Source: an uncultured Planctomycetota bacterium
GTDB taxonomy: Bacteria > Planctomycetota > Phycisphaerae > UBA1845 > Fen-1342
Reading direction: 5' to 3'
Length of the DNA stretch: 64,000 nt
Assembly: GCA_900696525.1 (NCBI GenBank)
Contig: CAADGL010000009.1
Span: 62,001-126,000, forward strand
Shown here: piece by piece, positions 2,662-25,871 of the stretch
Numbering within the stretch: position 1 is the stretch's first letter
Layout: each line of letters begins with the position of its first letter
The notes under the pieces: model-generated
What the model was told of the DNA's origin: nothing
Database searches by the model: none
The model's input: the letters and a program-made list of their open reading frames with translations, nothing else
Position numbers and translations under genes: made by a program

Positions 2662-5600
2662 TCAGCAGCCGCCGCCGCAGGTGTTGAACTCGGCCAGCAG
2701 CACGCCGAGATCGCCCTGGTCGGTGTCGCCGTCGCCGTCGACGTCTCCGGCGCATGCGCCGCCGGTGCAGCCGAAGTCGCCGAGCAGGATGCCGAGGTCG
2801 TCCTGGCAGACGCGGCCGTCGCCGGTAAGGTCGGCGGCGCACTGGGGGACGTCCGTGCAGTTGAGCCGGGTGATCTTCAGCGCGTCGAACGCCGCCTCGG
2901 TGACGGAGTTGTTCGGGTTGTCGGTCGCGCTGAAGCGCAGGCGCATCTGGGTCGTGAGCGGCACGTAGCTGGCCGGGTTGAACGAGCCGATCTGCCAACC
3001 GGTGCTGCCGCCGATCGACTCGACCAGCACCCAGGTCGAGCCGTTGTTGTTGGATATCTCGACGGTCAGGCGGTCGGCGTCGTTGTCGTCGTTGTAGAAC
3101 CAGCGTGCGTACGACACGAGGTACTGCCCCGGCGCCGACAGGTCGTACACGGGCGAGGTGGCGCGGGTCGGTCCGCCGTCCAGGTCTTCGTCGAAGCCGT
3201 TGCCCGTGACCCAGCACTGCCCGGAGCCGTCGTAGTCGGCGACCGGGTCTCCGCGGGCGCCTGCACTGCCCGCGGGCACCGCGCGCACCCAGGCGCCGGC
3301 GGTGACGCTCGTGTTGGTGACGGTCCAGCCCTGGTTGGTCTCGAAGTTGTCGTCAGCGACCGTTACCAAGTCGCCCACCTGGGCGCTGTAGAAGCTCGCC
3401 GGCGCGCCATCCGGGACGCTGACGATCGTGCCGCCGTCGCCCTGGGCGCTGACGTAGAACTGCGGCGTCGCGGCGCAGGTCGCCGGGGGGATGACGGCGG
3501 TGTACGAATCGCCGCCGTTGTGAATCAGCGGCGCGGGCTGGAACGCGCCGGCGGAGAAGCGATACCAGAGCGTGGGGCTGCCGGGGACGACGGTTTCGGA
3601 GCCGTTCTCGATCAGCACGGGGAAGCTGGTCTGGGCGCCGGGAGTGAGCACGCTGGGCGCGCCGAATGGCAGCGTGATCTTGAGGGCGGTCGGGATCATG
3701 CGCAGCTTGCCGATCCAGGTGCCCCAGATGTTTGCAGGCGACTCGGCGTACTCCTGGATGGTCCAGAGCGTGGTGTTGTCGAGCGGGTCGAGCGTGGTGA
3801 GGCTGTAGTCGCCCCAGCGGTTGCGGTTGGCGCCGTCGATGTTGTTCTGCGCGGCTTCGCCGGCCTTCATCAGGATCGGCACGGACATCTGTCCGGGCGA
3901 GTCGTTGGCCGTGCGGCCGGAGACGTAGGCGCCGACGTACTCGCTGGCGTTCGAGCCGGAGAAGCCCATGACAACGTCGCCGCTGGGGTTGGCGCAGATT
4001 CCCGGGTCGTAGTAGTGCCGGTTCGACTCGGTGACGGTGCCGAACTGCACGACGGAGTTGTTGCTGACGCGGATCTGGTACCAGCGGCAGGCCGCCCGGC
4101 TCTGGAACGAGATGCAGTGCGCCGTATAGATGAAGCCGTTCATGTACACCGCGTTCATCAGCCGCCGGTCCACCGTGTTGATGTTCGGGTTCGAGCCCAG
4201 CGCCGGGGCCGTCGGCGGGTTGCTGTATGACGTCACGGGGATCGAGCCGAGGTCTTGCAGCAGAGGCGATGTCAGCGGCGGCAGCACGCGGCGCAGCTTC
4301 AGGGCGTTGTTGGTGGTGCCGGTCGAGATCAGGTACTCGCCGCCGGGGTCGCCGTAGGTGTGCACGGGCTGGATGGCGCTCTCGTACGGCAGGCCGCGGA
4401 AGGCGGTGATGGTGCCGAGGCTCGGGTTCTGAGCGATCAGCGGGGCCTTGTCGATCGCGAACACGGTCATGCCGCCGCAGCCGGTGCCGAACATGTACGC
4501 CCCCGTGTAGATGCCGTTGGCGTCGACGCCGAGCGTCGGGTAGTCGGGGGAGCAGTTGGCGTCGGTGCCCTGCGAGACGACCCAGTTGGTCTTGAACCAC
4601 TGCCCGGTCGGGTTGTCGGTGAGCGAGACGGCCAGGAAGTTGCGCGTGCTGAAGTCCGTGACCAGCACGATCCAGCGGTTGCTGTGCTGGTCGAACACGA
4701 TGCGCGGGTCGCCGCTCGACCCGGGCAGGAACGACGTCAGCGACACGTTGCTGAGCTCGAAGCCGGTCTCGCGGTTGTAGATCGCCAGGTTGCGGTTCAC
4801 GATCTCGACGTAGTGCGTGGGGCCGATCGCGCCGCAACTGTCGGGGGGAAAGCTGCTCTGGCCCGCGTCGCCGCGGCGCACGCCCTCGAAGCTCAGCAGG
4901 ATCGTCGGCGGATCGATCACGCCGCTGACCAGTCCGCCCGCATCGCCCCGCTCGTCGAACGGCGCATCGGGTGGCGGCGCCGGGGGCGTGCGCGGCCCAG
5001 GGACGGCGTCATCCAGGCGGCGGAAACCTTCGCTGCCTTCCTCCCAGGTCAGGCCGGCGTAGTCGCTGCCCGTCAGCTCCTGTTTGAAGTACGTGTCCTC
5101 GAAGTCCAGGATCACCATCTGCGACAACGGCCGGCCGGCGGCGTCCACCGGCGTGAAACTCAGGTCGTCGAGCCCGTACCACGCCGCGTTGTGGTTCACG
5201 GGCAGCGCCTCAAGCTCGACCCGGTCGATCCCGGCCAGGTCGAACTCGAGCCATTCGGGCTCGGCGGTCAGGCCGACGAACCACCCGGTCACCTGCACGC
5301 GCTGGCCGTCGCGGTAGCCGATGGCCCGCAGGCAGGTCGCGGCCTGCGCCGGGTCGCCGTGCCCGGCCACGAACGCGCCGTGCAGATCGACGCGCGAAGG
5401 GAAGCCGATCGCCATCCGCGCCGCCCCCCATTTGTTCATGACATAGCGTTCGCCGGACGCCGCGTGCCGCGCCGCCGGCGCAGGCGGCACCTGCCACGCA
5501 CCCAGCCGCGGGCCGGGCTCCGCCGGCGGCTGCGTCAGCTCGAAGACGCGACGGAGGACGTCGCGGTCCTCGACCGCGCGCATGTCCTCGATCACCGCCG

Positions 5601-5727
5601 GCCCGTAGGTGGTCGGGTCGAGCTTCTCGCCGGCCATCGGTTCGACGGGCGGATTGGTGTCGGCGCTGACGGCGGCGGGAAACAGCAGGCCGGCAGCCAG
5701 CAGCGCTGGAATGAGACGGAGCAACAT
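2662..5727 (-). CDS. Large secreted protein with dockerin-like C-terminus
   Basis: 1021-residue exported protein of unknown function. The ATG at 5727 is chosen because it has a good ribosome site (AAGGGAGAA) and is followed at once by a signal peptide (MLLRLIPALLAAGLLFPAAV); an upstream in-frame ATG at 5829 overlaps the predicted promoter and has no such signal. The middle (about residues 270-700) looks like a beta-rich propeller or sandwich with repeated aromatic/Gly strands, followed by jelly-roll-like segments. The last about 60 residues hold two DxDGD-type calcium loops (DLTGDGRV, DVDGDGDTDQGD) separated by Cys-rich linkers and ending CGGGC. This resembles the dockerin type I / EF-hand tails common on planctomycete exoproteins. 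A structural or sorting role for the tail is inference. Confidence 0.75.
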   Translation of the reverse strand: MLLRLIPALLAAGLLFPAAVSADTNPPVEPMAGEKLDPTTYGPAVIEDMRAVEDRDVLRRVFELTQPPAEPGPRLGAWQVPPAPAARHAASGERYVMNKWGAARMAIGFPSRVDLHGAFVAGHGDPAQAATCLRAIGYRDGQRVQVTGWFVGLTAEPEWLEFDLAGIDRVELEALPVNHNAAWYGLDDLSFTPVDAAGRPLSQMVILDFEDTYFKQELTGSDYAGLTWEEGSEGFRRLDDAVPGPRTPPAPPPDAPFDERGDAGGLVSGVIDPPTILLSFEGVRRGDAGQSSFPPDSCGAIGPTHYVEIVNRNLAIYNRETGFELSNVSLTSFLPGSSGDPRIVFDQHSNRWIVLVTDFSTRNFLAVSLTDNPTGQWFKTNWVVSQGTDANCSPDYPTLGVDANGIYTGAYMFGTGCGGMTVFAIDKAPLIAQNPSLGTITAFRGLPYESAIQPVHTYGDPGGEYLISTGTTNNALKLRRVLPPLTSPLLQDLGSIPVTSYSNPPTAPALGSNPNINTVDRRLMNAVYMNGFIYTAHCISFQSRAACRWYQIRVSNNSVVQFGTVTESNRHYYDPGICANPSGDVVMGFSGSNASEYVGAYVSGRTANDSPGQMSVPILMKAGEAAQNNIDGANRNRWGDYSLTTLDPLDNTTLWTIQEYAESPANIWGTWIGKLRMIPTALKITLPFGAPSVLTPGAQTSFPVLIENGSETVVPGSPTLWYRFSAGAFQPAPLIHNGGDSYTAVIPPATCAATPQFYVSAQGDGGTIVSVPDGAPASFYSAQVGDLVTVADDNFETNQGWTVTNTSVTAGAWVRAVPAGSAGARGDPVADYDGSGQCWVTGNGFDEDLDGGPTRATSPVYDLSAPGQYLVSYARWFYNDDNDADRLTVEISNNNGSTWVLVESIGGSTGWQIGSFNPASYVPLTTQMRLRFSATDNPNNSVTEAAFDALKITRLNCTDVPQCAADLTGDGRVCQDDLGILLGDFGCTGGACAGDVDGDGDTDQGDLGVLLAEFNTCGGGC

Positions 5728-5800
5728 GGCTTCTCCCTTTTGGCGGGCGCCCGATGCGTGGGCTGAAAACAACGACGAAAAGGCGAGACTCGCTGACTGC

Positions 5801-5829
5801 ACTATAGCGGCGTGATCCAATTGCTCCAA
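5801..5829 (-). promoter_or_regulatory. Sigma70-like promoter of the dockerin-tailed gene
   Basis: On the minus strand, -35 TTGGAG (5829-5824) and -10 TATAGT (5806-5801) are separated by exactly 17 bases. The -10 matches TATAAT at five of six positions. It lies about 75 bases upstream of the chosen ATG at 5727, which supports that start over the longer reading frame. Prediction from sequence only. Confidence 0.5.
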
Positions 5830-5986
5830 CCCCTCGCCGACGCCAACCGGGAGGAATCGCCGTTATCGGCTGCGTGCCTTCGGATCGCAGGCGAGCTCCA
5901 TTCGCCGCAGGGCCCGTCGGCCGCCGCGCGAGCTCAGGCTGACGAGGGCGCGCGACCCCAGGATAAGGCCGCGGCAGAATCCGCCC

Positions 5987-7222
5987 TTACGAGCCGGACG
6001 CCAGGCTGGTGGGCCGCACGAAGATGTAATACAGCCGGCCCTCGGCGCCTGTGCGGCCTGCGAGGGCCTCGGCCTGCGGCCCGACGCCCATGTAGATGTC
6101 GCAGCGGCCGGCCGCCCGGATCGCCCCGCCCGTGTCATGATCGAGCGCGAAGCCTGCGTACGGCCGCATGGTGACGGCGTCGGACGCGGTCGCCGCGGGC
6201 GCCGGAATCCGCGTCTGCATGAACGCGAGGCAGGCGCGCGGGAAGACGTCCTTGTCGGTGGCGATGCTGTAGAAGGGCGTCACGGGCACGTTGATGCTGC
6301 CGTAGGGGCCGCCGCTGGTCTCCTTGAAGAAGACGAAGCGGTCGTTGTTCCAGGTGTAGTGCGGGACGAGATCGGGCCGGGTGGTGAAGAACCGGCGCAT
6401 GGCCTGCAAGGAGACCTCGGCGGCCTTGATGGCGCGGTCGCGAACCAGCAGCGGCGCGATCGGCGTGTATTCGTGGCCGTTGTTGGCGGCGTAGCCCAGT
6501 TCCCACAGCCCGCCGTTCTCCAGCCGCAGCTTGGCCGAGCCCTGCACCGTGACGACGTAGGCCTCGAAGGGGTCCTGGAGCCAGGCCAGCTCGCGCCCGC
6601 GCATCAGCCCCTGCTCCTCGATCTCGCGCCGCGTGTAGTAGCCGGGGACGACGCTCGCGCCGCCGGCGCGGCGGCCGATGGTGCGTCCCTCGTCGTCTTT
6701 CACGAGGTCGGCGGGGATCTTGTAGATCGGGTAGCGGAAGCGCTCGTCGGCCTGCTTGCGGCCTTCGAAGATGGGCGTGTAGTAGCCGGTGAAGTAGACG
6801 GTGCCGCGGTCGTCGCAGCCGACCGACTGGTAGACTTCGAAGCGGGCGCGGATGAGCTGGTCGAACTCGCGCGCGTCGCGCGCCGCATGCAGCACGCCCA
6901 GGAACGCGTTCAGCGATGCCACGGCGCGCTCGTGCGTGACGTCGCCGTAGGGGAAGTAGCGGCGGCTCGACGGCCGCGAGAGGTAGTCGAGGCTGTGACG
7001 AATCGCCTGCTCGAGCTCGGCGCGGCGCTCGAACCCGGGCGCGAAGTCGGGGTAGTCGCGCGGGTCGATCTTCCGCAGCGCCAGCGCCCCGGGCGGCAGG
7101 GCGCGGCCGTAGTCCTTCTCCTTCGGCCTGAAGGGCTGCATCGGCTCGGCGGGCTGGTTGCAGGACGCCAGGCCGAGCGTCGCGGCCAGCGAGGTGAGAA
7201 TGAGCGTGCGGGTTCGGAACAT
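5987..7222 (-). CDS. mltA: Membrane-bound lytic murein transglycosylase A (MltA family)
   Basis: 411-residue outer-membrane lipoprotein that cleaves peptidoglycan glycan strands to 1,6-anhydro ends. The start at 7222 has a strong GGAAGGAG site and gives a lipoprotein signal ending LASC with Cys21 as the lipidated residue. The MltA barrel domain is recognised from FTGYYTP followed by RYPIYKIP, and from RELAWLQDP...VQGSAKLRL. The C-terminal 3D domain carries [20 protein letters not shown], which holds the conserved aspartates of the active site. Length is close to usual for the family. It lies downstream of a 585-base gap containing insertion-sequence debris and is probably transcribed alone. 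Confidence 0.93.
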
Positions 7223-7339
7223 GCGCCGGCTCCTTCCGACAATGGGCCCATCCGTGTCGGCTGCTGATTCTGCGTTGGGGCGCGCCGTCTGGCAAGCCGG
7301 GGGCGCGGTTTTTGGCGGGCGCCGTAGATCGCGCCGGGC

Positions 7340-7472
7340 ACCGCTGGTAGTGAATCCAGCCGCTGCCGCCACGGCGGCCCTTCTTCACCGGCAGGCCGGG
7401 CTGCGTCCGATCGAGCGCCGGGATCTGGCTCTTCTCGTCGCAGCACAACACCAACGCGTGCTCCGGCGGACG
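7340..7472 (-). pseudogene. IS630-family transposase fragment
   Basis: A short minus-strand stretch translates to [20 protein letters not shown] followed by PGLPVKKGR. This is the highly characteristic central block of IS630-family DDE transposases, usually read as [18 protein letters not shown], including the catalytic Asp of CDEKSQ. Homology fades on both sides: the next expected segment (MTHDYKR) is replaced by unrelated GWIHYQR, and no start or first catalytic Asp is present. It is a remnant and cannot be functional. Confidence 0.8.
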
Positions 7473-7546
7473 TCGCCGGCAGTGCAAGCAGAATCTCAAA
7501 TTGGCGTCCAGACGGCCCGCGCGCACGGCGGCGTGCGCGCGCTGAG

Positions 7547-7608
7547 GCGCCCCCGCGCTGGCGCTTGGGGCTCGGATGCGCCCCCGCGCTGGCGCTTGGG
7601 GCTCGGAT
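7547..7608. repeat. 31-nt tandem duplication (GCGCTTGGGGCTCGG family)
   Basis: Two adjacent identical 31-nt units (7547-7577, 7578-7608), each containing CCCGCGCTGGCGCTTGGGGC. The same core occurs in inverted arrangement inside purL (44709-44783) and once between purM and the gluzincin lipoprotein gene (48256-48288), so this is a dispersed repeat family of this genome. Confidence 0.9.
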
Positions 7609-7807
7609 CACGCTGACCCACGCCAGCCGGTGGGCACCACCGGGTGAATTGCCGCCGGGCGGCGCCGGATGTACTCTCACACAGTTCAGGCTCCCGGAAA
7701 CGGACTCATGCGGCCCGGCAGGGTCGCCGGGTGGCAGCCGAGGGCGGCTGCGGTCCGAGGTCCGCTCGCTCCCGCAGCGGGCGGCGCGCTGGTGGAAGGA
7801 GAATGGC

Positions 7808-9526
7808 GTGAGCGTCTTGACGCAAGCTCGTGATTTGCCGGCGGCCGAAGCGCAGGGCGTTCGGCCCGTTCCGCAGGGTCGGTCGGCGCCCTCGCCGCGG
7901 CCGCTGAATCCGCTGGCCGAGCGGCTGCTGATCATCGGGCTCGACGGCGCGACCTTCGACGTGCTCGATCCGCTGATGGCCGCCGGGCACATGCCCCACC
8001 TGGCGCGGTTCATCCGCGAGGGGGTGTCGGGCGTGCTGCAATCGACGCGGCCGCCGATCACGCCGGCGGCGTGGACGACGTTCATGACGGGCAAGGGTCC
8101 GGGCAAGCACGGGATCGTCGATTTCGAGAAGTACGACGTCCGGACGCACACGCTGACCTTCAACAGCACCTACGAGATCCAGGAAAAGACGCTGTGGGAG
8201 CTGCTGAGCGAGAAGGGGCTGCGGGTGGGCAGCATCAACGTGCCGATGACCTACCCGCCGCGGCCGGTCAACGGCTTCATGATCAGCGGCTTTGAGACGC
8301 CGAGCATCGACGCGGACTTCACCTGGCCGCGCGAGCTGAAGGCGGAGATTCTGCGCGAGATCCCGAATTACTCGTACCGGACGAACTGGAAGCGGCGGGC
8401 GTTCGGAGGGTCGGCGATCCTGCGTGAGAACCTGGAGTACATCTGCAACAGCTTCGAGCAGGGGTGGGAGATCACGCGGTATTGCGGCGACAAGTACGGC
8501 TGGGACGTGCTGATGATCGTGTACAAGCTGGTGGACAACCTCCAGCACAAGGCGTGGAAGTACCTCGATCCGCGCTACCAGCACCGCTACCCCGCGCAGG
8601 CCCGCATGGCCGCGGAGTGCTTCCGCAAGCTCGACGAGGCGCTGGAGCGGCTCTTCGAGTACGCGGAGCGCTACCGCGCCACCGTGCTGATCATGTCCGA
8701 CCACGGGCACGGCAGCCTCGACGGCAAGGCCCAGCCGAACCTGCTGCTCCAGGAGTGGGGCTACCTGCACCTGCGCAGCCGCTGGCAGCAGGCGGAGACG
8801 CGCGCCGGCCACTGGCTGCACCGCCTGACCAAGGGCCGGGCCAACCGCTTCGAGCAGGGCAGCCGCGGCATCGAGCGCGACCTGGCCGTCGACTGGGAGC
8901 GCACCCGCGCCTGCGTCATGCACGCAGGCATCTACGGCTTCCTCTACATCAATCTCAAGGGCCGCGGGCCGCTCGGCATCGTCGAGCCGCAGGAGTACGA
9001 GGCCCTGCGCGACGAGATCCGCGGCCGGCTGCTGGCGGCGGAGACGACCGGCCGCGACGGCCGGCCAATGCGCATCTTCGCCGACGTCTTTCGCACCGAG
9101 CAGCTCTACGGCTGCACGCGCGAGGAGCACCCGGACCTACCCGACCTGCTGCTGTCGCCGCAGCCGGGGCTGGCGGTGGTGCGCAAGATCCGCGGCCGCC
9201 AGCCGGTGCGCTGGTGCCCGTTGCGGCGGCTCGAGGGCACGCACCGGGCCGAGGGCGTCTTCGCGATGCGCGGGCCGAAGGTGCGCCGCGGCGAGCGGCT
9301 GGAGGCGGACATCGTCGACCTGACGCCGACGGCGCTGGCGGCGCTCGGGATGCGCGTGCCGGTGGACATGGAGGGCCGCGTGCTCAGCGAGGCTTTCGTC
9401 ACGCAGCCGCTGGTCGAACGCGAGCCGCCGATCCGCAAGGCGCTCGAGGAGCACGGCGAGGTATATTCCGAGGAAGACCGCAAGGTCCTGGAGAAGCGGC
9501 TCAGCGAGCTGGGCTACCTGGAGTAG
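7808..9526 (+). CDS. Alkaline phosphatase-superfamily phosphodiesterase
   Basis: 572-residue cytoplasmic enzyme of the type I phosphodiesterase / nucleotide pyrophosphatase (PF01663-like) group. The GTG at 7808 is preferred because it follows GGAAGGAGA at good spacing; upstream in-frame codons run into the repeat region. The metal site shows LIIGLDGATFDVL near residue 40, the nucleophile region WTTFMTGKGPGKHG near residue 95, and the metal ligands SDHGHGSLDG near residue 298. No signal peptide or membrane segment is visible. In planctomycetes and Thermoplasma-type archaea, relatives are annotated only as 'alkaline phosphatase family'; the substrate is unknown. Stands alone on the plus strand. 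Confidence 0.85.
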   Translation: MSVLTQARDLPAAEAQGVRPVPQGRSAPSPRPLNPLAERLLIIGLDGATFDVLDPLMAAGHMPHLARFIREGVSGVLQSTRPPITPAAWTTFMTGKGPGKHGIVDFEKYDVRTHTLTFNSTYEIQEKTLWELLSEKGLRVGSINVPMTYPPRPVNGFMISGFETPSIDADFTWPRELKAEILREIPNYSYRTNWKRRAFGGSAILRENLEYICNSFEQGWEITRYCGDKYGWDVLMIVYKLVDNLQHKAWKYLDPRYQHRYPAQARMAAECFRKLDEALERLFEYAERYRATVLIMSDHGHGSLDGKAQPNLLLQEWGYLHLRSRWQQAETRAGHWLHRLTKGRANRFEQGSRGIERDLAVDWERTRACVMHAGIYGFLYINLKGRGPLGIVEPQEYEALRDEIRGRLLAAETTGRDGRPMRIFADVFRTEQLYGCTREEHPDLPDLLLSPQPGLAVVRKIRGRQPVRWCPLRRLEGTHRAEGVFAMRGPKVRRGERLEADIVDLTPTALAALGMRVPVDMEGRVLSEAFVTQPLVEREPPIRKALEEHGEVYSEEDRKVLEKRLSELGYLE

Positions 9527-21108: not shown

Positions 21109-24100
21109 TCAGGCCAGGTCGATGCGCAGCTCGTGGCCTTCGACGGAGAGCGCGCCGCGCTCCGGCGCGACGGGCCGACGGACGACGTCGTCGCAGAGGC
21201 ACTCCTGCCGCACGAGCGCCAGGCGCCGGCCGAGGATGGCCCAGAACTCGTCGGCGCAGTCGACGTGCAGGCGGATGCGCGCCTCGTAGGCCAGTTCGCG
21301 CTCCTTCCGCAGCGCCTGCACGTGGTGGATGAACTCGCGGATCAGGCCCTCCTCGATCAGCTCGGGCGTGATCTGGCTGCTGAGCACGACGACGCCGTGC
21401 CTGCCCTGGGCCGCCGACCAGCCCGTCTTGGCCTCGAGGCGGATCTCGATCTCGTCCGGCGACAGCTCGATGCGCTCGCCGTCGATCGTCAGCGGGAGCG
21501 TGCCCTCATCGGCGAGCTGCTTGCGCGCGGCGGCGGCGTCGGGCAGGGCGGCGAGGGCTTCCTTGATCTTCGGGACAAGGGCGCGGAACTTCGCCCCGAT
21601 GGCCTTGAAGTTCGGCACGACCTTGTACGCGACGTACTGGTCGGCCTCGGCGGCGAACTCGACGCGCTTGACGTTCAGCTCGTCGGCGATGAGCTCGGCG
21701 TGCCCGGCAAGCCAGGCGGCGTGCTCGGGCCGTGCGAGGATGATCTCGACCAGCGCGGCCGGCTGACGCACCTTGCGCAGGCGGGGCTCGCTGCTGGCGG
21801 CGCGGGCGGCGCGGCCGAGCGAGCTGATCTCGCGCACGATGTCCATCTCGGCGCAGAGCGCTTCGTCGACGAGCGACTCGTCGGCCTGGGGATAGTCGCA
21901 CAAATGCACGCTGACCGGGTGTGCGGGCGCTCCTGGCCGGGCGGGCTGGTCGGCGCTACAGGCGCCGCCGCCGTCGCGGGTCAGGGTCTGATACATGGTC
22001 TCGGCGAAAAAGGGCGTGAACGGGGCGATGAGCAGGCTGAGCGTGTACAGGCAGCCGTAGAGCGTGTGATAGGCGTCCCATTTGTCCTGGTCGTTCGCGG
22101 AGTATCCCTCCTTGGCGTTTTGATCCCTCGATCCCTCGATCCCTCGCCAGAACCGCTCCCTCGACCGCCGCACGTACCAGTTCGACAGCGCCTCGACGAA
22201 CTCGCTCAGCCGCTGGGCCGCCGGGAAGTTCTCGAAGCGGTCCATCGACTCGCGCACGAAGCGGATCGTGCGATGCAGCTCGCTGATGATCCAGCGGTCG
22301 AGCTCCGAGCGCTCGGCGGTCGGGCGCTTGCCGTGGGCCGCGTCGGGGATCGCCTCGAAGCCGTCGATGCTGGCGTAGATGCTGAAGAAGCTCAGCACGT
22401 TGTAGAGCTTCACCAGGAACTCGCGCTGCGCGTCGCGGATGGCGGCCTCCTGGAAGCGGATGCTCGTCCACGGTGGCTGGCCGCTGAAGAAGTACCAGCG
22501 CATCGCGTCCGCGCCGTACTGGTCGAAGATGTATCCGGGCTCGCGGTAGTTCTTCTTCCGCTTGCTCATCTTCAGCCCGTCCTCGCCGAGGATCAGGCCC
22601 AGGACGATGCAGGTGCGGAAGGGGTGCGGGAAAGCCTCTTGCGGCGTGGCTCCGTCCGGACCGGCTAGCCATTGCGCGGCGGAGTCCGCGGTCTCACAGT
22701 CACGCGGTCCGAACAACAGCGTGCTGATGGCCAGCAGGCCGTAGAACCAGCCGCGGGTCTGGTCGATCGCCTCACTGATGAAATCGGCCGGGAACCGCTC
22801 CATGAACGTGCGAATGCTGTCGGTCGTGTGCGGATAGCCCCACTGGGCGAACGGCATGCTGCCGGCGTCCCACCAGCAGTCGATCACCTCCGGCACGCGC
22901 CGCATGAGGGTGGTGGAGGGGGTTGTGGTGGAGGGGGTTGAATAGGGGGTGGGGCAGGCATCCTGCCTGCCCTCATTCCTGTGTTGCTGCTTTTCCTCAG
23001 GACCATGCGCCTGAGCAGGCTGGAAGCCTGCCCCACCCTGGCATGCGCTGCACGCGTACGTCCACTCATCGATGTATGGCTTGTGCACCTGCAAGTGATG
23101 CGGCAGCTCGACGCCTTCGGCGCGGTGCTCGGCCACCTTCGCTTCCCAGTAGCCGCCGTCGGTCGCACCCGGCTTGCCTCTTAGTTCCGCGAATGAGCCG
23201 ACGGCTTCCATGCGGCCGCACTTCTCGCACACCCAGATCGGCAGCGGCGTGCCCCAGTAGCGCTCGCGCGAGAGGGCCCAATCGACGTTGTTGCGCAGAA
23301 AATCGCCGAAGCGGCCCTCGCGGATGTGCTCAGGCAGCCAGTTCACCGCGGCGTTGTTCCTCAGGAACTCGTCCTTGAATTCACTGGTGCGCACGAACCA
23401 GCTCTTGCGGGCGTACTGGATCAGCGGGTCGTCCTCGGCCCGCGGGCAGAACGGGTACTCGTGCCGCACGACCTCCTGGTGATACAGCAGCGGCGTGCCC
23501 CAAGGCGTCTTGCGCTCGTCGCGCAGCTCGCGGATGATCTCCTTGTCGCAGTCCTTCACCCATCGGCCGCGATACCGCGGCGGGGCGTCGTCGTTGAAGG
23601 CGCCGTCGGGGTTGACGGCGTTGAGGAGCGGGACGGCATCGGGATCTTCGAAGCGCTTGCGCTCTTCCAGCAGAAGGTTGAAGTCCACCTCGCCGAAGGC
23701 CGGCGCCTCATGCACAAGCCCGGTGCCGCTCTCGATCGTCACAAAGTCCGCCGCGACCACGCGCCAGCCCACGGGGGCCGCGCCGCCGCCGCGCAGGGCC
23801 GCCCTCGTGTCGCCGAGGCGCGCGTAGTACAGATCAGTAAAAGGCGGAACATATCGGAGTCCAAGCAGCTCAGCTCCCGTGCAGGTCGAAACGATCGACA
23901 GCTCGCGCTTGAGCTTCTTTGCGAGGGCGTCGACGAGCGCCGCGGCGACGTACAGGTGCTCATTCTCGACCGGATCATGCACCAGCGCATACTCAAGCTC
24001 CGGATGCACCGCCGCGAAGTGATTGCTGAGGAGCGTCCAGGGCGTGGTTGTCCAAACAAGCAGGCTGGTGCGGGTGGGGCAGGCATCCTGCCTGCCCGGG

Positions 24101-25596
24101 GCTGCCTCTTGGGCTCTTGGTTCAGCGTCTGGGGCCTGACCCTTCAGGGCAGGCAGGATGCCTGCCCCACCCTCGTCCCAGAGCCAGCGGTAGTCTTCCG
24201 GCAGGCCGCGCTTTGCCGGGTTCGCGAGGATGTAGTTCCGTTTCTCCTCAAAATCGGATTCGCTGCGGATGATGCGGTCAAATGACTCGTCCTGCCAGAC
24301 GGACCCGCTCCAGGCCGGATCATTCTGCCGGCGAAGTGCGCTGATCTCATTCGCGGAGACGCTCTTGATGCTGTGGAGCAGCTCACTGAGCGACCACCAT
24401 GTGCCTCTCGTCTTCTCGACCGGCGTAATCAGCAAGTGCACATGGTCTGGCATGACCACGACGTTGTGCACCAGCATGCGCTGCGCGTCGAAATGCAGGC
24501 ATGCCTTGAGCACCAGGTCGCGTTCCGCCGGAGCCAACTCCGAGGATCGCACCGTGCCATCCGGCCTTTTGCGCACGCCGAAAGTGCGGAAGGTGACGAA
24601 ATATGTGCTGCCGCCGGCCTCCCAATGCGGCAACCGCCGTTGGCGGATTTCCAGTTCGCCACCAACGCCTGCACGGGCTGGTGTGGTGGCCATCTGTGAG
24701 GGAGTTACTTGGGCAGGCTGGAAGCCTGCCCCACCCCTCACTTGGGCAGGCTGGAAGTCTGCCCCACCCCTCACTTGGGCAGGCTGGAAGTCTGCCCCAC
24801 CCCTCACTTGGGCAGGCTGGAAGCCTGCCCCACCCGGGTGGGGCAGGCTTCCAGCCTGCCCACTCTCTGATCCCTCCACCGGCGATGTCTCCACCGGCGA
24901 TGTCTCCAGGGGCGATCCCTCCACCGGCGATCCTGCCAGGGGAAACTTCACAAACACCGACGGATCATCAACCGTCTTATACCCCTCGCCCACCTCGCCC
25001 GCCGAGAGCGCCGTGCCGCCCTGCGCCCACCACCACACAACCTTGTGCCCCTGATAGAGCAGCCCGCGCTCGAACAGCGTCTTCAGCCCCCACCAAACGC
25101 TTTCGACGTAGCCCTTGTGGAACGTCGCGTAGGCGTCCTTCAGGTTCACCCAGAACCCCAGCCGACGGGTCATTTCCTCCCACTCGCGCGTGTAGCGGAA
25201 GACGCTCTGGATACAGCGCAGGTTGAAACGCTCCACGCCGTACTGCTCGATCTCCTGCTTGGTGTGGATCGAATGGCCGAGCTCCCTGGTCAGTTCTTTG
25301 CAGACCTCGACCTCCACCGGCAGGCCGTGCGTGTCCCAGCCCGCCTTGCGCTCGACCAGGTGCCCGGTCATCGTCCGATAGCGCGGAAAAACGTCCTTGA
25401 TGGCCCGGGTCAGGCAGTGCCCCGGGTGCGGCAGCCCGTTGGCCGTCGGCGGGCCTTCGTAGAACACGAACCGCGGCGCCCCGGCCTGCCGGCGCTGGGC
25501 GAGCGAAGCCCCGAACACGTCGTGCTCGTCCCAGAAGGCGAGCACGCGTTTCTCGGCGGCAGGGAAATCGAACCTGGGCGGCAGGGGTCGAAACAT
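21109..25596 (-). CDS. ileS: Isoleucyl-tRNA synthetase (IleRS2 type) with in-frame transposase insert
   Basis: 1495-residue predicted product; a normal IleRS2 is roughly 1050-1150. Start ATG at 25596 (CGGAG upstream). Class I signatures are PHPGH (HIGH equivalent, near residue 58) and KMSKRKKNY (22554-22580 region), the latter typical of the eukaryote-like IleRS2 group, many of which resist mupirocin. The CP1 editing domain starts WWWAQGGTALSAGEVGEGYK and continues TSLLVWTTTPWTLLSN, but between them lie about 288 extra in-frame residues (24073-24936) that contain a complete RAYT transposase and REP-like repeats. A second insert (about 22880-23040) follows the zinc-ribbon-like CxxC / CSAC segment, and GIEGSRDQ (22122-22145) is a third, tiny one. 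No stop or frameshift interrupts the frame. Whether the whole is translated as one chain is unknown. Confidence 0.93.
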   Translation of the reverse strand: MFRPLPPRFDFPAAEKRVLAFWDEHDVFGASLAQRRQAGAPRFVFYEGPPTANGLPHPGHCLTRAIKDVFPRYRTMTGHLVERKAGWDTHGLPVEVEVCKELTRELGHSIHTKQEIEQYGVERFNLRCIQSVFRYTREWEEMTRRLGFWVNLKDAYATFHKGYVESVWWGLKTLFERGLLYQGHKVVWWWAQGGTALSAGEVGEGYKTVDDPSVFVKFPLAGSPVEGSPLETSPVETSPVEGSESGQAGSLPHPGGAGFQPAQVRGGADFQPAQVRGGADFQPAQVRGGAGFQPAQVTPSQMATTPARAGVGGELEIRQRRLPHWEAGGSTYFVTFRTFGVRKRPDGTVRSSELAPAERDLVLKACLHFDAQRMLVHNVVVMPDHVHLLITPVEKTRGTWWSLSELLHSIKSVSANEISALRRQNDPAWSGSVWQDESFDRIIRSESDFEEKRNYILANPAKRGLPEDYRWLWDEGGAGILPALKGQAPDAEPRAQEAAPGRQDACPTRTSLLVWTTTPWTLLSNHFAAVHPELEYALVHDPVENEHLYVAAALVDALAKKLKRELSIVSTCTGAELLGLRYVPPFTDLYYARLGDTRAALRGGGAAPVGWRVVAADFVTIESGTGLVHEAPAFGEVDFNLLLEERKRFEDPDAVPLLNAVNPDGAFNDDAPPRYRGRWVKDCDKEIIRELRDERKTPWGTPLLYHQEVVRHEYPFCPRAEDDPLIQYARKSWFVRTSEFKDEFLRNNAAVNWLPEHIREGRFGDFLRNNVDWALSRERYWGTPLPIWVCEKCGRMEAVGSFAELRGKPGATDGGYWEAKVAEHRAEGVELPHHLQVHKPYIDEWTYACSACQGGAGFQPAQAHGPEEKQQHRNEGRQDACPTPYSTPSTTTPSTTLMRRVPEVIDCWWDAGSMPFAQWGYPHTTDSIRTFMERFPADFISEAIDQTRGWFYGLLAISTLLFGPRDCETADSAAQWLAGPDGATPQEAFPHPFRTCIVLGLILGEDGLKMSKRKKNYREPGYIFDQYGADAMRWYFFSGQPPWTSIRFQEAAIRDAQREFLVKLYNVLSFFSIYASIDGFEAIPDAAHGKRPTAERSELDRWIISELHRTIRFVRESMDRFENFPAAQRLSEFVEALSNWYVRRSRERFWRGIEGSRDQNAKEGYSANDQDKWDAYHTLYGCLYTLSLLIAPFTPFFAETMYQTLTRDGGGACSADQPARPGAPAHPVSVHLCDYPQADESLVDEALCAEMDIVREISSLGRAARAASSEPRLRKVRQPAALVEIILARPEHAAWLAGHAELIADELNVKRVEFAAEADQYVAYKVVPNFKAIGAKFRALVPKIKEALAALPDAAAARKQLADEGTLPLTIDGERIELSPDEIEIRLEAKTGWSAAQGRHGVVVLSSQITPELIEEGLIREFIHHVQALRKERELAYEARIRLHVDCADEFWAILGRRLALVRQECLCDDVVRRPVAPERGALSVEGHELRIDLA
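22122..22145. repeat. 8-nt tandem repeat (GATCCCTC x3) in ileS
   Basis: Three exact copies of GATCCCTC, 24 bases in all, so the ileS frame is kept. Translated on the minus strand it gives the EGSRDQ-type stretch between the anticodon-binding helices. The same words occur again at 24871-24930 in the transposase-bearing insert. Confidence 0.85.
22949..23036. repeat. Inverted REP pair inside ileS
   Basis: A REP-like unit, GTGG foot then GGCAGGC-ATCCT-GCCTGCC (22949-22971), faces an inverted relative at about 23013-23036 whose palindrome is GCAGGCTGGAAGCCTGC. About 40 bases lie between them. The pair, a BIME-like doublet, is read in the ileS frame as GGAGFQPAQ ... GRQDACPT. Next to it a Thr/Ser/Pro-coding low-complexity run (about 22905-22945) repeats GTGGTGGAGGGGGTTG. 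Confidence 0.85.
24070..24174. repeat. REP doublet downstream of the RAYT insert
   Basis: A unit GTGG-GGCAGGC-ATCCT-GCCTGCC starts at 24075 and a mirror copy (GGCAGGC-AGGAT-GCCTGCC then CCAC) ends near 24172, facing each other across about 50 bases. They border the low-coordinate side of the transposase gene and end at the codon where the IleRS editing domain resumes (TSLLVW, 24069 downward). Same family as 22949-23036 and 24834-24863. Confidence 0.85.
24175..24693 (-). mobile_element. REP-associated tyrosine transposase (RAYT), in frame within ileS
   Basis: Y1/HUH single-strand transposase domain of about 165 residues, in the same frame and strand as ileS. The N-terminus ELEIRQRRLPHWEAGGSTYF, then VVMPDHVHLL with the HUH-type metal motif HVH at 24436-24444, IKSVSANEIS, VWQDESFDRIIRS, and NYILANPAKRGL, where the Tyr at 24232-24234 is the expected nucleophile, ending YRWLW. 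All segments expected for an intact RAYT are present and no stop is seen. An internal ATG at 24693 (MATTPARAG) could start a free transposase, but no ribosome site precedes it, so as read it is a domain inside IleRS. REP-like repeats flank both sides, as is usual for RAYT genes. Confidence 0.88.
24707..24863. repeat. 33-nt tandem REP array next to RAYT
   Basis: Four direct copies of a 33-nt unit (24707-24739, 24740-24772, 24773-24805, 24806-24838) with the core GGGCAGGCTGGAAGCCTGCC, a palindrome with GCTGGAAGC centre. Two of the four differ by one base (AAGTC for AAGCC). An inverted copy with the GTGG foot follows at 24834-24863. Because 33 is a multiple of three, the array encodes RGGAGFQPAQV four times in the ileS product. 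Confidence 0.92.
24871..24944. repeat. 15-nt tandem repeat at the insert edge
   Basis: About five diverged 15-nt units built on TCCACCGGCGATG / TCCCTCCACCGGCGA lie between the REP array and the normal IleRS sequence. They encode SPVEG/SPLET pentapeptides in frame, giving a Ser-Pro-Glu linker between the editing-domain strand VFVKFPL and the repeats. Confidence 0.8.
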
Positions 25597-25871
25597 GAAC
25601 CACACTCCGTCGGGAACCGGTCGAGCCAAGCCCGTTAGTGTACCGGCTCAGGCGGGCGACGCGAGCTTTCGGGCCGTGGCGGGCGCGGCGCGGGTGCTGG
25701 TACAGCTCGGCCCAGAAAGCAAGCTGCGCCAGTACGGCGGCGCCTGGTTCCGAGCGGCGGGCGGCGCTTGCCTGCGGCGGTCATGGCCGCGAGAATAGCT
25801 TGATTGACGAGCCTTCGGCCGCGGGTGCGAGCGCCCCGCGGCGGAAGGCGCCAGCCCGAAGGACCAGCCCG

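Follow-up and report, generated by a model that had tools for sequence, protein, structure and literature searches.

The closest described relatives of the element treated here are the RAYTs (REP-associated tyrosine transposases, or TnpA-REP), which together with repetitive extragenic palindromes (REPs) form REPtrons. In the portions of the literature drawn on here, RAYTs are stated to be always bordered by two inverted REPs (PMC2817692, Nunvar 2010), and a table in the same paper gives the known RAYTs as free genes, with REPs present in tens to hundreds of copies. REPs in frame within tnpAREP genes are mentioned in a later survey, from which a few unexpectedly long proteins, viewed as fusions or annotation errors, were excluded (PMC6006769, Quentin 2018, as far as the portion used goes). 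Short in-frame REPs and the Rickettsia palindromic elements form a second described system, with inserts of about 20-82 amino acids (aa) according to the sections used of PMC3733652 (Di Nocera 2013), and the chemistry of single-strand REP cleavage is treated in the part used of PMC8266576. The IS200/IS605 transposases are also Y1 enzymes that work on hairpin ends. Inteins and homing endonuclease genes are mobile, lie in frame in essential genes and are loyal to one gene and one site. The present analysis concerns a RAYT/REP element found in frame within ileS, the isoleucyl-tRNA synthetase (IleRS) gene, of an uncultured Planctomycetota bacterium. The DNA analysed, referred to as the window, is a stretch of 64,000 nucleotides (nt) from contig CAADGL010000009.1 of assembly GCA_900696525.1. 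Among the papers listed by a literature search limited to open-licence work, none was found to report a host gene with a complete RAYT in its frame, nor was such an in-frame transposase lifestyle found described for bacterial transposons.

The ileS frame of the window extends over 1506 codons without a stop, with a likely start at the ATG at 25594-25596, and matches TIGR00392 with 726.7 bits (cut-off 621.4). Residues 335-478 match the RAYT model NF047646 (REP_Tyr_transpos; 70.2 bits, E 1.7e-19, under the curated cut-off of 80), in contrast to the 21.7 bits obtained with transpos_IS200 (cut-off 55), which sets the enzyme apart from IS200/IS605. The Pfam family Y1_Tnp is matched at 27.2 against a cut-off of 23, the profile of embedded RAYTs described below gives 217.8 bits, and a sequence match to 4er8 in the PDB has an E value of 1e-8. 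The original prediction, made from the letters alone, had placed a complete RAYT in frame inside the connective peptide 1 (CP1) editing domain of IleRS; the frame and the profile matches bear this out, and the positions it gave for the HVH motif, the tyrosine and an internal ATG are exact. Both the HVH and the YxxxN motifs of the Y1 family are present. The segment between two conserved anchors at this place, site A, measures 296 aa in the window as against 16-95 aa in the 18 family members with a readable RAYT-free site A. Inverted REPs headed by GT(A/G)G border the RAYT on both sides, and the palindromes predicted there number five upstream (four direct REPs and one inverted) and two downstream (one direct and one inverted). 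The HUH-Tyr motifs, the two inverted tagged REPs, the REP arrays and the fold match to 4er8 are those of REPtrons, but the window RAYT is not free-standing, and RAYTs of its type form coding parts of essential genes. Because there is no stop and the element shares the frame and orientation of its host, reading ileS to its end would translate the REP arrays and the transposase as an insertion domain, in one chain with IleRS, as a direct consequence of the sequence. Coordinates are given in Table 1.

Table 1. Positions of the ileS frame, the embedded element and associated features in the window.
Feature	Position	Strand	Remarks
ileS open frame	21109..25629	-	sole ileS detected in the genome; TIGR00392, Pfam
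RAYT/REP element, site A	24072..24862	-	outermost to outermost inverted REP; in frame, CP1 editing-domain loop
Host strand VFVKFPL bordering site A	24937-24957		
Host strand SLLVWTTTPWTL bordering site A	24031-24066		
RAYT (Y1/HUH transposase) domain	24178..24648	-	profile matches, fold match to TnpArep 4er8
HVH (HUH) motif	24436..24444	-	both His invariant in the 18-row alignment
Candidate catalytic Tyr (YILANP)	24232..24234	-	invariant in the 18-row alignment
Four direct GTGG-tagged REPs	24710..24838	-	33-nt spacing (11 codons), upstream of RAYT, coding strand
Outermost inverted REP	24836..24862	+	perfect palindrome of 27 bp together with 24809-24835; as an RNA hairpin, -60.1 kcal/mol
REP downstream of RAYT (coding strand)	24147..24172	-	
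Terminal inverted REP, downstream of RAYT	24072..24097	+	
15-nt tandem repeat (SPVEG/SPLET peptide)	24869..24943	-	between host strand and REP array
Site B: in-frame REP/inverted-REP pair without transposase	22947..23041	-	second IleRS loop
Internal ATG	24691..24693	-	not conserved in relatives

In an AlphaFold model of window residues 12-1010 the editing domain and the RAYT domain are predicted with confidence, and the linkers that connect them with low confidence. Foldseek matches the model to IleRS editing domains with template modelling (TM) scores of 0.72-0.77 and to TnpArep 4er8 with 0.59, normalised by target. In a second model, that of an RdgB fusion (locus L163, mean pLDDT 76.9), two long strands are kept and the RAYT sits at the tip of a hairpin; these strands are taken to be the native RdgB hairpin.

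The original prediction overlooked a second in-frame REP pair (site B), an in-frame RAYT in purH of the same genome, and the recurrence of the arrangement, described below. The site B loop is 59 aa long in the window, 18 aa in 13 of the 24 other readable loops and 17-50 aa in the rest. Its ends match both ends of the RAYT element, with 100% and 83-93% identity, which would suit a non-autonomous derivative of that element. Site B, and with it the REPs in the ValRS gene of the window genome, are of the known in-frame REP kind, palindromes in frame in protein genes and possibly in loops; site A differs in that the transposase itself is in frame, and none is mentioned in the sections used of PMC3733652.

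A RAYT is present in ileS of at least 7 of 27 family genomes, which represent 24 genera. The number is a lower bound because several of the others have an ileS that is split or that stops at a contig end. Site A is occupied in G000 (the window genome), G003, G017 and G026, a further site, C, in G005 and G018, and both sites in G009 (locus L045), where a frameshift within a stretch with 71 N's splits the site C copy. One IleRS N-terminal match, the sole detected ileS, occurs in each of the seven. Comparison of ileS among close relatives, which had been proposed as a check, thus had a divided outcome: the insert recurs, at two sites, and was not seen in the other 20 genomes. RAYT-free ileS loops (L038, L041, L046, L048, L054, L058) contain other in-frame repeat peptides, e.g., GNREQGTG, EPRASAR and GEAPAEP, and several small repeat families therefore seem to use these sites.

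All 11 transposase matches that the family search found outside ileS also sat in host frames (purH 8, gcvP 2, RarA/MgsA ATPase 1). A profile of 18 embedded RAYTs, searched against 114 genomes of the order, matched 63 of them. The strongest matches (at least 193 bits) number 34, are found in 26 of the 114 genomes and all lie in frames of 481-1647 aa, with hosts, assigned by eye and by Pfam on a sample, that are ileS (10), purH (18), gcvP (3), an MmeI-like methylase (2) and rarA (1). Ordinary RAYTs scoring 49-75 bits in the same search serve as a control: nearly all are in frames of 84-300 aa, the exceptions being frames of 308, 415 and 442 aa and one fragment of a G009 copy, and intermediate scores are mixed. 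In G026, a genome of 7 contigs rated 99% complete, ileS, purH, gcvP and valS are all occupied.

The arrangement is not restricted to one class of transposase. In G021 a different Y1 class fills the PurH loop (L277, 291-3038) that is occupied by a RAYT in the congener G020; its YICEQ motif makes it resemble class 3 as described in the portion used of PMC6006769. The repeat peptides EEPRASARPV and RGLKSAA flank this insert. An order search with the second class matched 49 of 114 genomes. Among 33 loci inspected by eye, it is embedded in purH (7 loci), alaS (12 loci, 13 copies), valS (4), leuS (1) and a methylase (1), and all 8 of these 25 loci examined with Pfam were confirmed; the remaining 8 of the 33 are free-standing or unclear. 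Single-contig genomes G107 (96% complete) and G108 (97%) have the second class in purH. In the alaS gene of G017 (L328, frame 2780-7837, reverse strand), two class-3-like Y1 transposases are found in one AlaRS of 1686 aa.

A scan of named genomes, in which 80 of 248 loci were kept, extends the arrangement to other hosts: valS, rdgB (Ham1), dnaK and several DNA-methylase families. By title, 39 of the kept loci are from Phycisphaerae, Phycisphaerales or Phycisphaeraceae and 11 from other planctomycetes. The DUF1156 methylase of Desulfoferrobacter suflitae strain DRH4 is one of the hosts, and DUF1156-type methylases of several phyla (L150, L152, L157, L170, L182, L190, L192) have RAYTs in what is seemingly the same loop. 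Free-standing relatives occur in several phyla as well. In a sample of the phylum at least 14 of 392 genomes were matched at E 1e-40, several of the matches being free-standing; this is a lower bound because 10 candidates were scored per genome. The anatomy of the embedded RAYT is thus real and recurrent. It is found in IleRS (at two sites), PurH, ValRS, LeuRS, AlaRS, GcvP, RdgB, DnaK, RarA and DNA methylases, and at least two Y1 transposase classes reside in frame in this way. The synthetase-transposase fusion had been presented as a single curiosity; the case itself stands, as one instance of a wider pattern.

The fetched loci were pooled into 114 distinct relatives, 79 embedded and 35 free, which reach at least 85 bits over most of the profile and are best matches, not a random sample. 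Embedding was defined by the open frame, host genes were identified from motif patterns and visual reading, with a Pfam check on 19 first-class fusions, and the G009 site C copy was left out as split. The HUH and tyrosine motifs are kept in 77 of the 79 embedded RAYTs, the exceptions being a copy truncated where its contig ends and another that reads YxxxNS. Of 18 embedded pairs picked by hand, 13 have a finite dS; in these the ratio of nonsynonymous to synonymous substitution rates (dN/dS) is 0.08-0.24, a rough estimate in the 6 with dS above 2, and in four free pairs it is 0.10-0.19. The embedded transposases thus look to be under purifying selection. By a strict rule, 59 of 79 embedded RAYTs have a tagged GT(A/G)G stem upstream together with an inverted tagged stem downstream, as do 18 of 35 free ones; any tagged stem at all was found in 7 of 148 control stretches of host sequence. 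The linkers, 7,823 codons in total, have no stop in the host frame (by construction) as compared with 167 and 228 in the other two.

From these sequences it is most probable that RAYT/REP elements live within essential enzymes, as domains that are translated, are not spliced out and stay loyal to one gene. The fusion would be expressed from the host gene, with no need of a promoter of its own, and the REP-encoded peptides would serve as flexible linkers. The tethered transposase may nick and rejoin its cognate single-stranded REPs, and the element would move rarely, and then mostly from one allele or loop of a gene to another. Its in-frame position in a gene that the cell needs could protect the element, because most disabling mutations would break the host enzyme too. 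An embedded RAYT may then be regarded as a non-splicing counterpart of an intein. Like inteins, it is an in-frame mobile element of essential genes that is loyal to gene and site. Unlike them, it has a Y1 transposase with REP ends as its nuclease, its domain apparently remains part of the finished enzyme, and no intein family is among the Pfam matches (E up to 0.001) of the 27 fusions scanned. A broader proposal, that of a new kind of lifestyle, could go either way, with a slight lean against it: autonomous Y1 transposases of at least two classes would have arrived at a life as permanent unspliced domains of essential enzymes. From one lineage to others they would home into the loop that they occupy in a given gene, with REP ends as translated linkers and with aminoacyl-tRNA synthetases and PurH as recurrent hosts.

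Gene loyalty is apparent in the tree of 112 RAYTs, on which host-gene labels change 25 times, compared with 69.2 times when shuffled (0 of 200 shuffles were as low). RAYTs from the same genome are split over clades and those from the same host gene are mostly together; ileS copies of sites A and C are intermixed in one clade with a support of 98. The tree of the host ileS places G017 and G009 as sisters and unites the three f8 genomes, with support of 100/100 for each grouping; RAYT presence changes 5 times on it. The RAYT data reject both host groupings in approximately unbiased (AU) tests (p-AU 0.0002 for G017 with G009, 0.013 for the f8 hosts), with the qualification that the tests use 149 columns, that the groups were named post hoc, from the trees, and that the G009 host row was joined from two pieces. 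The conflict between RAYT and host trees is suggestive of mobility. One vertical lineage for each ileS site was considered and rejected, with site A as a single clade at p-AU 0.042 and the host groupings rejected too. At the protein level a RAYT occupies the purH loop of G056 and G049 but not that of their congeners G057 and G048, the G057 match having a TGA in its N-terminal part. At ileS site C, within one genus, the loops of G004 and G005 are both variable, and thus do not make a clean empty-site pair.

The window genome (3.6 Mb, 22 contigs, rated 93% complete) has further copies. The full query gave weaker matches to ValRS on contig C12, to a 952-aa frame on C11 and to a second transposase on C18. 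The latter, 49% identical to that of ileS and a member of the same clade, shares its frame with the C-terminal portion of PurH; the N-terminal half of PurH stops at the tip of C15 and the remainder starts at the tip of C18, so that the assembly seems to be broken at a REP array. A third Y1 gene, on C17, stands free and belongs to another class. When the core is left free, the ileS REP has six exact copies, all in ileS; with one mismatch there are three more in ileS and three elsewhere, the latter outside the long frames listed. The exact purH REP has five copies in purH and a single one, in frame, in a loop of ValRS that seems to correspond to ileS site A. The REPs of this loop, one of them identical to that of the purH element, are at L234 1752-1774 (G000:C12:590551-590573). 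The many dispersed REPs that typify RAYTs were not found for the ileS element in the window genome, taken alone. A related REP family, GTGGGGCGGGCTTCCAGCCCGCCC, has 22 exact copies dispersed in this genome, with no transposase identified for it. In five other genomes a similar REP pattern occurs in 15, 10, 5, 2 and 0 places.

Several observations weigh against residence as translated, gene-loyal domains. Nearly all cases are from metagenome-assembled genomes. The IleRS model has a mean pLDDT of 60.8 and a poor catalytic part. The very stable hairpins in the coding mRNA, -60.1 kcal/mol at 24806-24865 and -77.0 kcal/mol at 24072-24172, could hamper ileS translation. For hosts outside the predefined list the open-frame definition inflates the in-frame count; 19 of the 79 embedded frames run into a contig or locus end, and 78 of 80 copies are clean where readable, the others being the split site C copy of G009 and methylase locus L223, in which the frame breaks just past the RAYT. 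(Host-gene matches were found in 3 of 36 loci tested, the 35 free ones and L223, and on both sides in L223 only.) REPs are not everywhere confined to the host gene, since two other genomes have a related REP pattern dispersed in 10-15 places. Clustering by host is imperfect (valS 5 changes, purH 3, DUF1156 6, free 12), and the ileS clade is weakly supported, at 69/90, in a smaller careful tree. The RAYT trees are built on 149 columns, and old paralogues that were later lost in places could look like mobility.

The RAYT may instead act as a separate protein, either translated from a start inside the gene or cut out by proteolysis at the disordered linkers, with IleRS merely sharing its frame. 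The long low-confidence linkers of the models and the in-frame ATG of the window speak for this possibility, which is partly compatible with residence as an enzyme domain. Nevertheless 16 of 79 embedded RAYTs have an ATG within 30 codons upstream, as compared with 23 of 35 free ones. The counts are 2 of 79 and 4 of 35, respectively, when the ATG must also have a Shine-Dalgarno-like 4-mer, and 9 of 79 and 6 of 35 for any start codon with such a 4-mer. Moreover, because no stop follows the RAYT, an internal start would yield a RAYT fused to the remainder of the host and not a free RAYT. A separate RAYT from a conserved internal start was therefore rejected as a candidate, and separate action in general is considered unlikely. 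Among the three alternatives of the original prediction, an IleRS made with a transposase in its surface loop is best supported; neither the free RAYT from the internal ATG nor a gene copy made tolerable by a second ileS held up, the latter having not been found in the genome, although at 93% completeness a missing copy is conceivable.

Domestication, in which the host enzyme has taken over the transposase domain for a function of its own, e.g., nucleic-acid binding, should also be considered. The low dN/dS, the residence in one gene across genera and the raw recurrence of aminoacyl-tRNA synthetases as hosts would all agree with it. A recruited domain is hard to reconcile with the 20 of 27 family genomes in whose ileS, in some cases incomplete, no RAYT was seen, or with congeners that are missing it. 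The many unrelated hosts, the two sites within one gene, the use of one PurH loop by two distinct classes of transposase and the tagged inverted REPs retained at the ends argue in the same direction, and domestication appears very unlikely.

Removal of the insert before or after translation, by intein-like splicing, as an intron or by a bypass over the palindromes, could be imagined from the strong hairpins at both ends and the essential hosts. An element removed at the RNA level would have no need to keep the frame, and the Pfam matches of the fusions, as noted, include no intein. An intron or ribozyme in ileS was also rejected, as Rfam gave none above threshold in the window, the sub-threshold matches being mostly to microRNA models on hairpins. 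Removal is accordingly rated as highly improbable. An assembly chimera or a decaying redundant gene copy, for which the 22 contigs of the window genome and the break of purH at a REP array could be cited, deserves next to no credence and is already largely refuted by the first-class architecture in 26 of 114 order genomes, the second class in purH of single-contig G107 and G108, the occupied ileS, purH, gcvP and valS of the 7-contig G026, the methylase fusion in strain DRH4, and the intact catalytic motifs and low dN/dS.

Residence of RAYTs as enzyme domains bears on how transposable elements persist. In the REP/RAYT persistence model, as set out in the part used of PMC8049555, a REPIN that enters a gene destroys it, whereas the transposases described here are inside presumably indispensable genes. 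Their residence offers a candidate answer to the question of how slow, low-copy bacterial transposases survive. It suggests that synthetases and PurH tolerate inserts of about 200-400 aa with a nuclease fold, and provides a natural set of permissive insertion sites. Since long fusion proteins were excluded from the survey in PMC6006769, judging from the portion used, such cases may have been passed over.

Two further features of the window IleRS may be mentioned. Its class I HIGH signature reads HPGH (25417-25428), and its best fold matches are to type 2 (mupirocin-resistant) IleRS structures.

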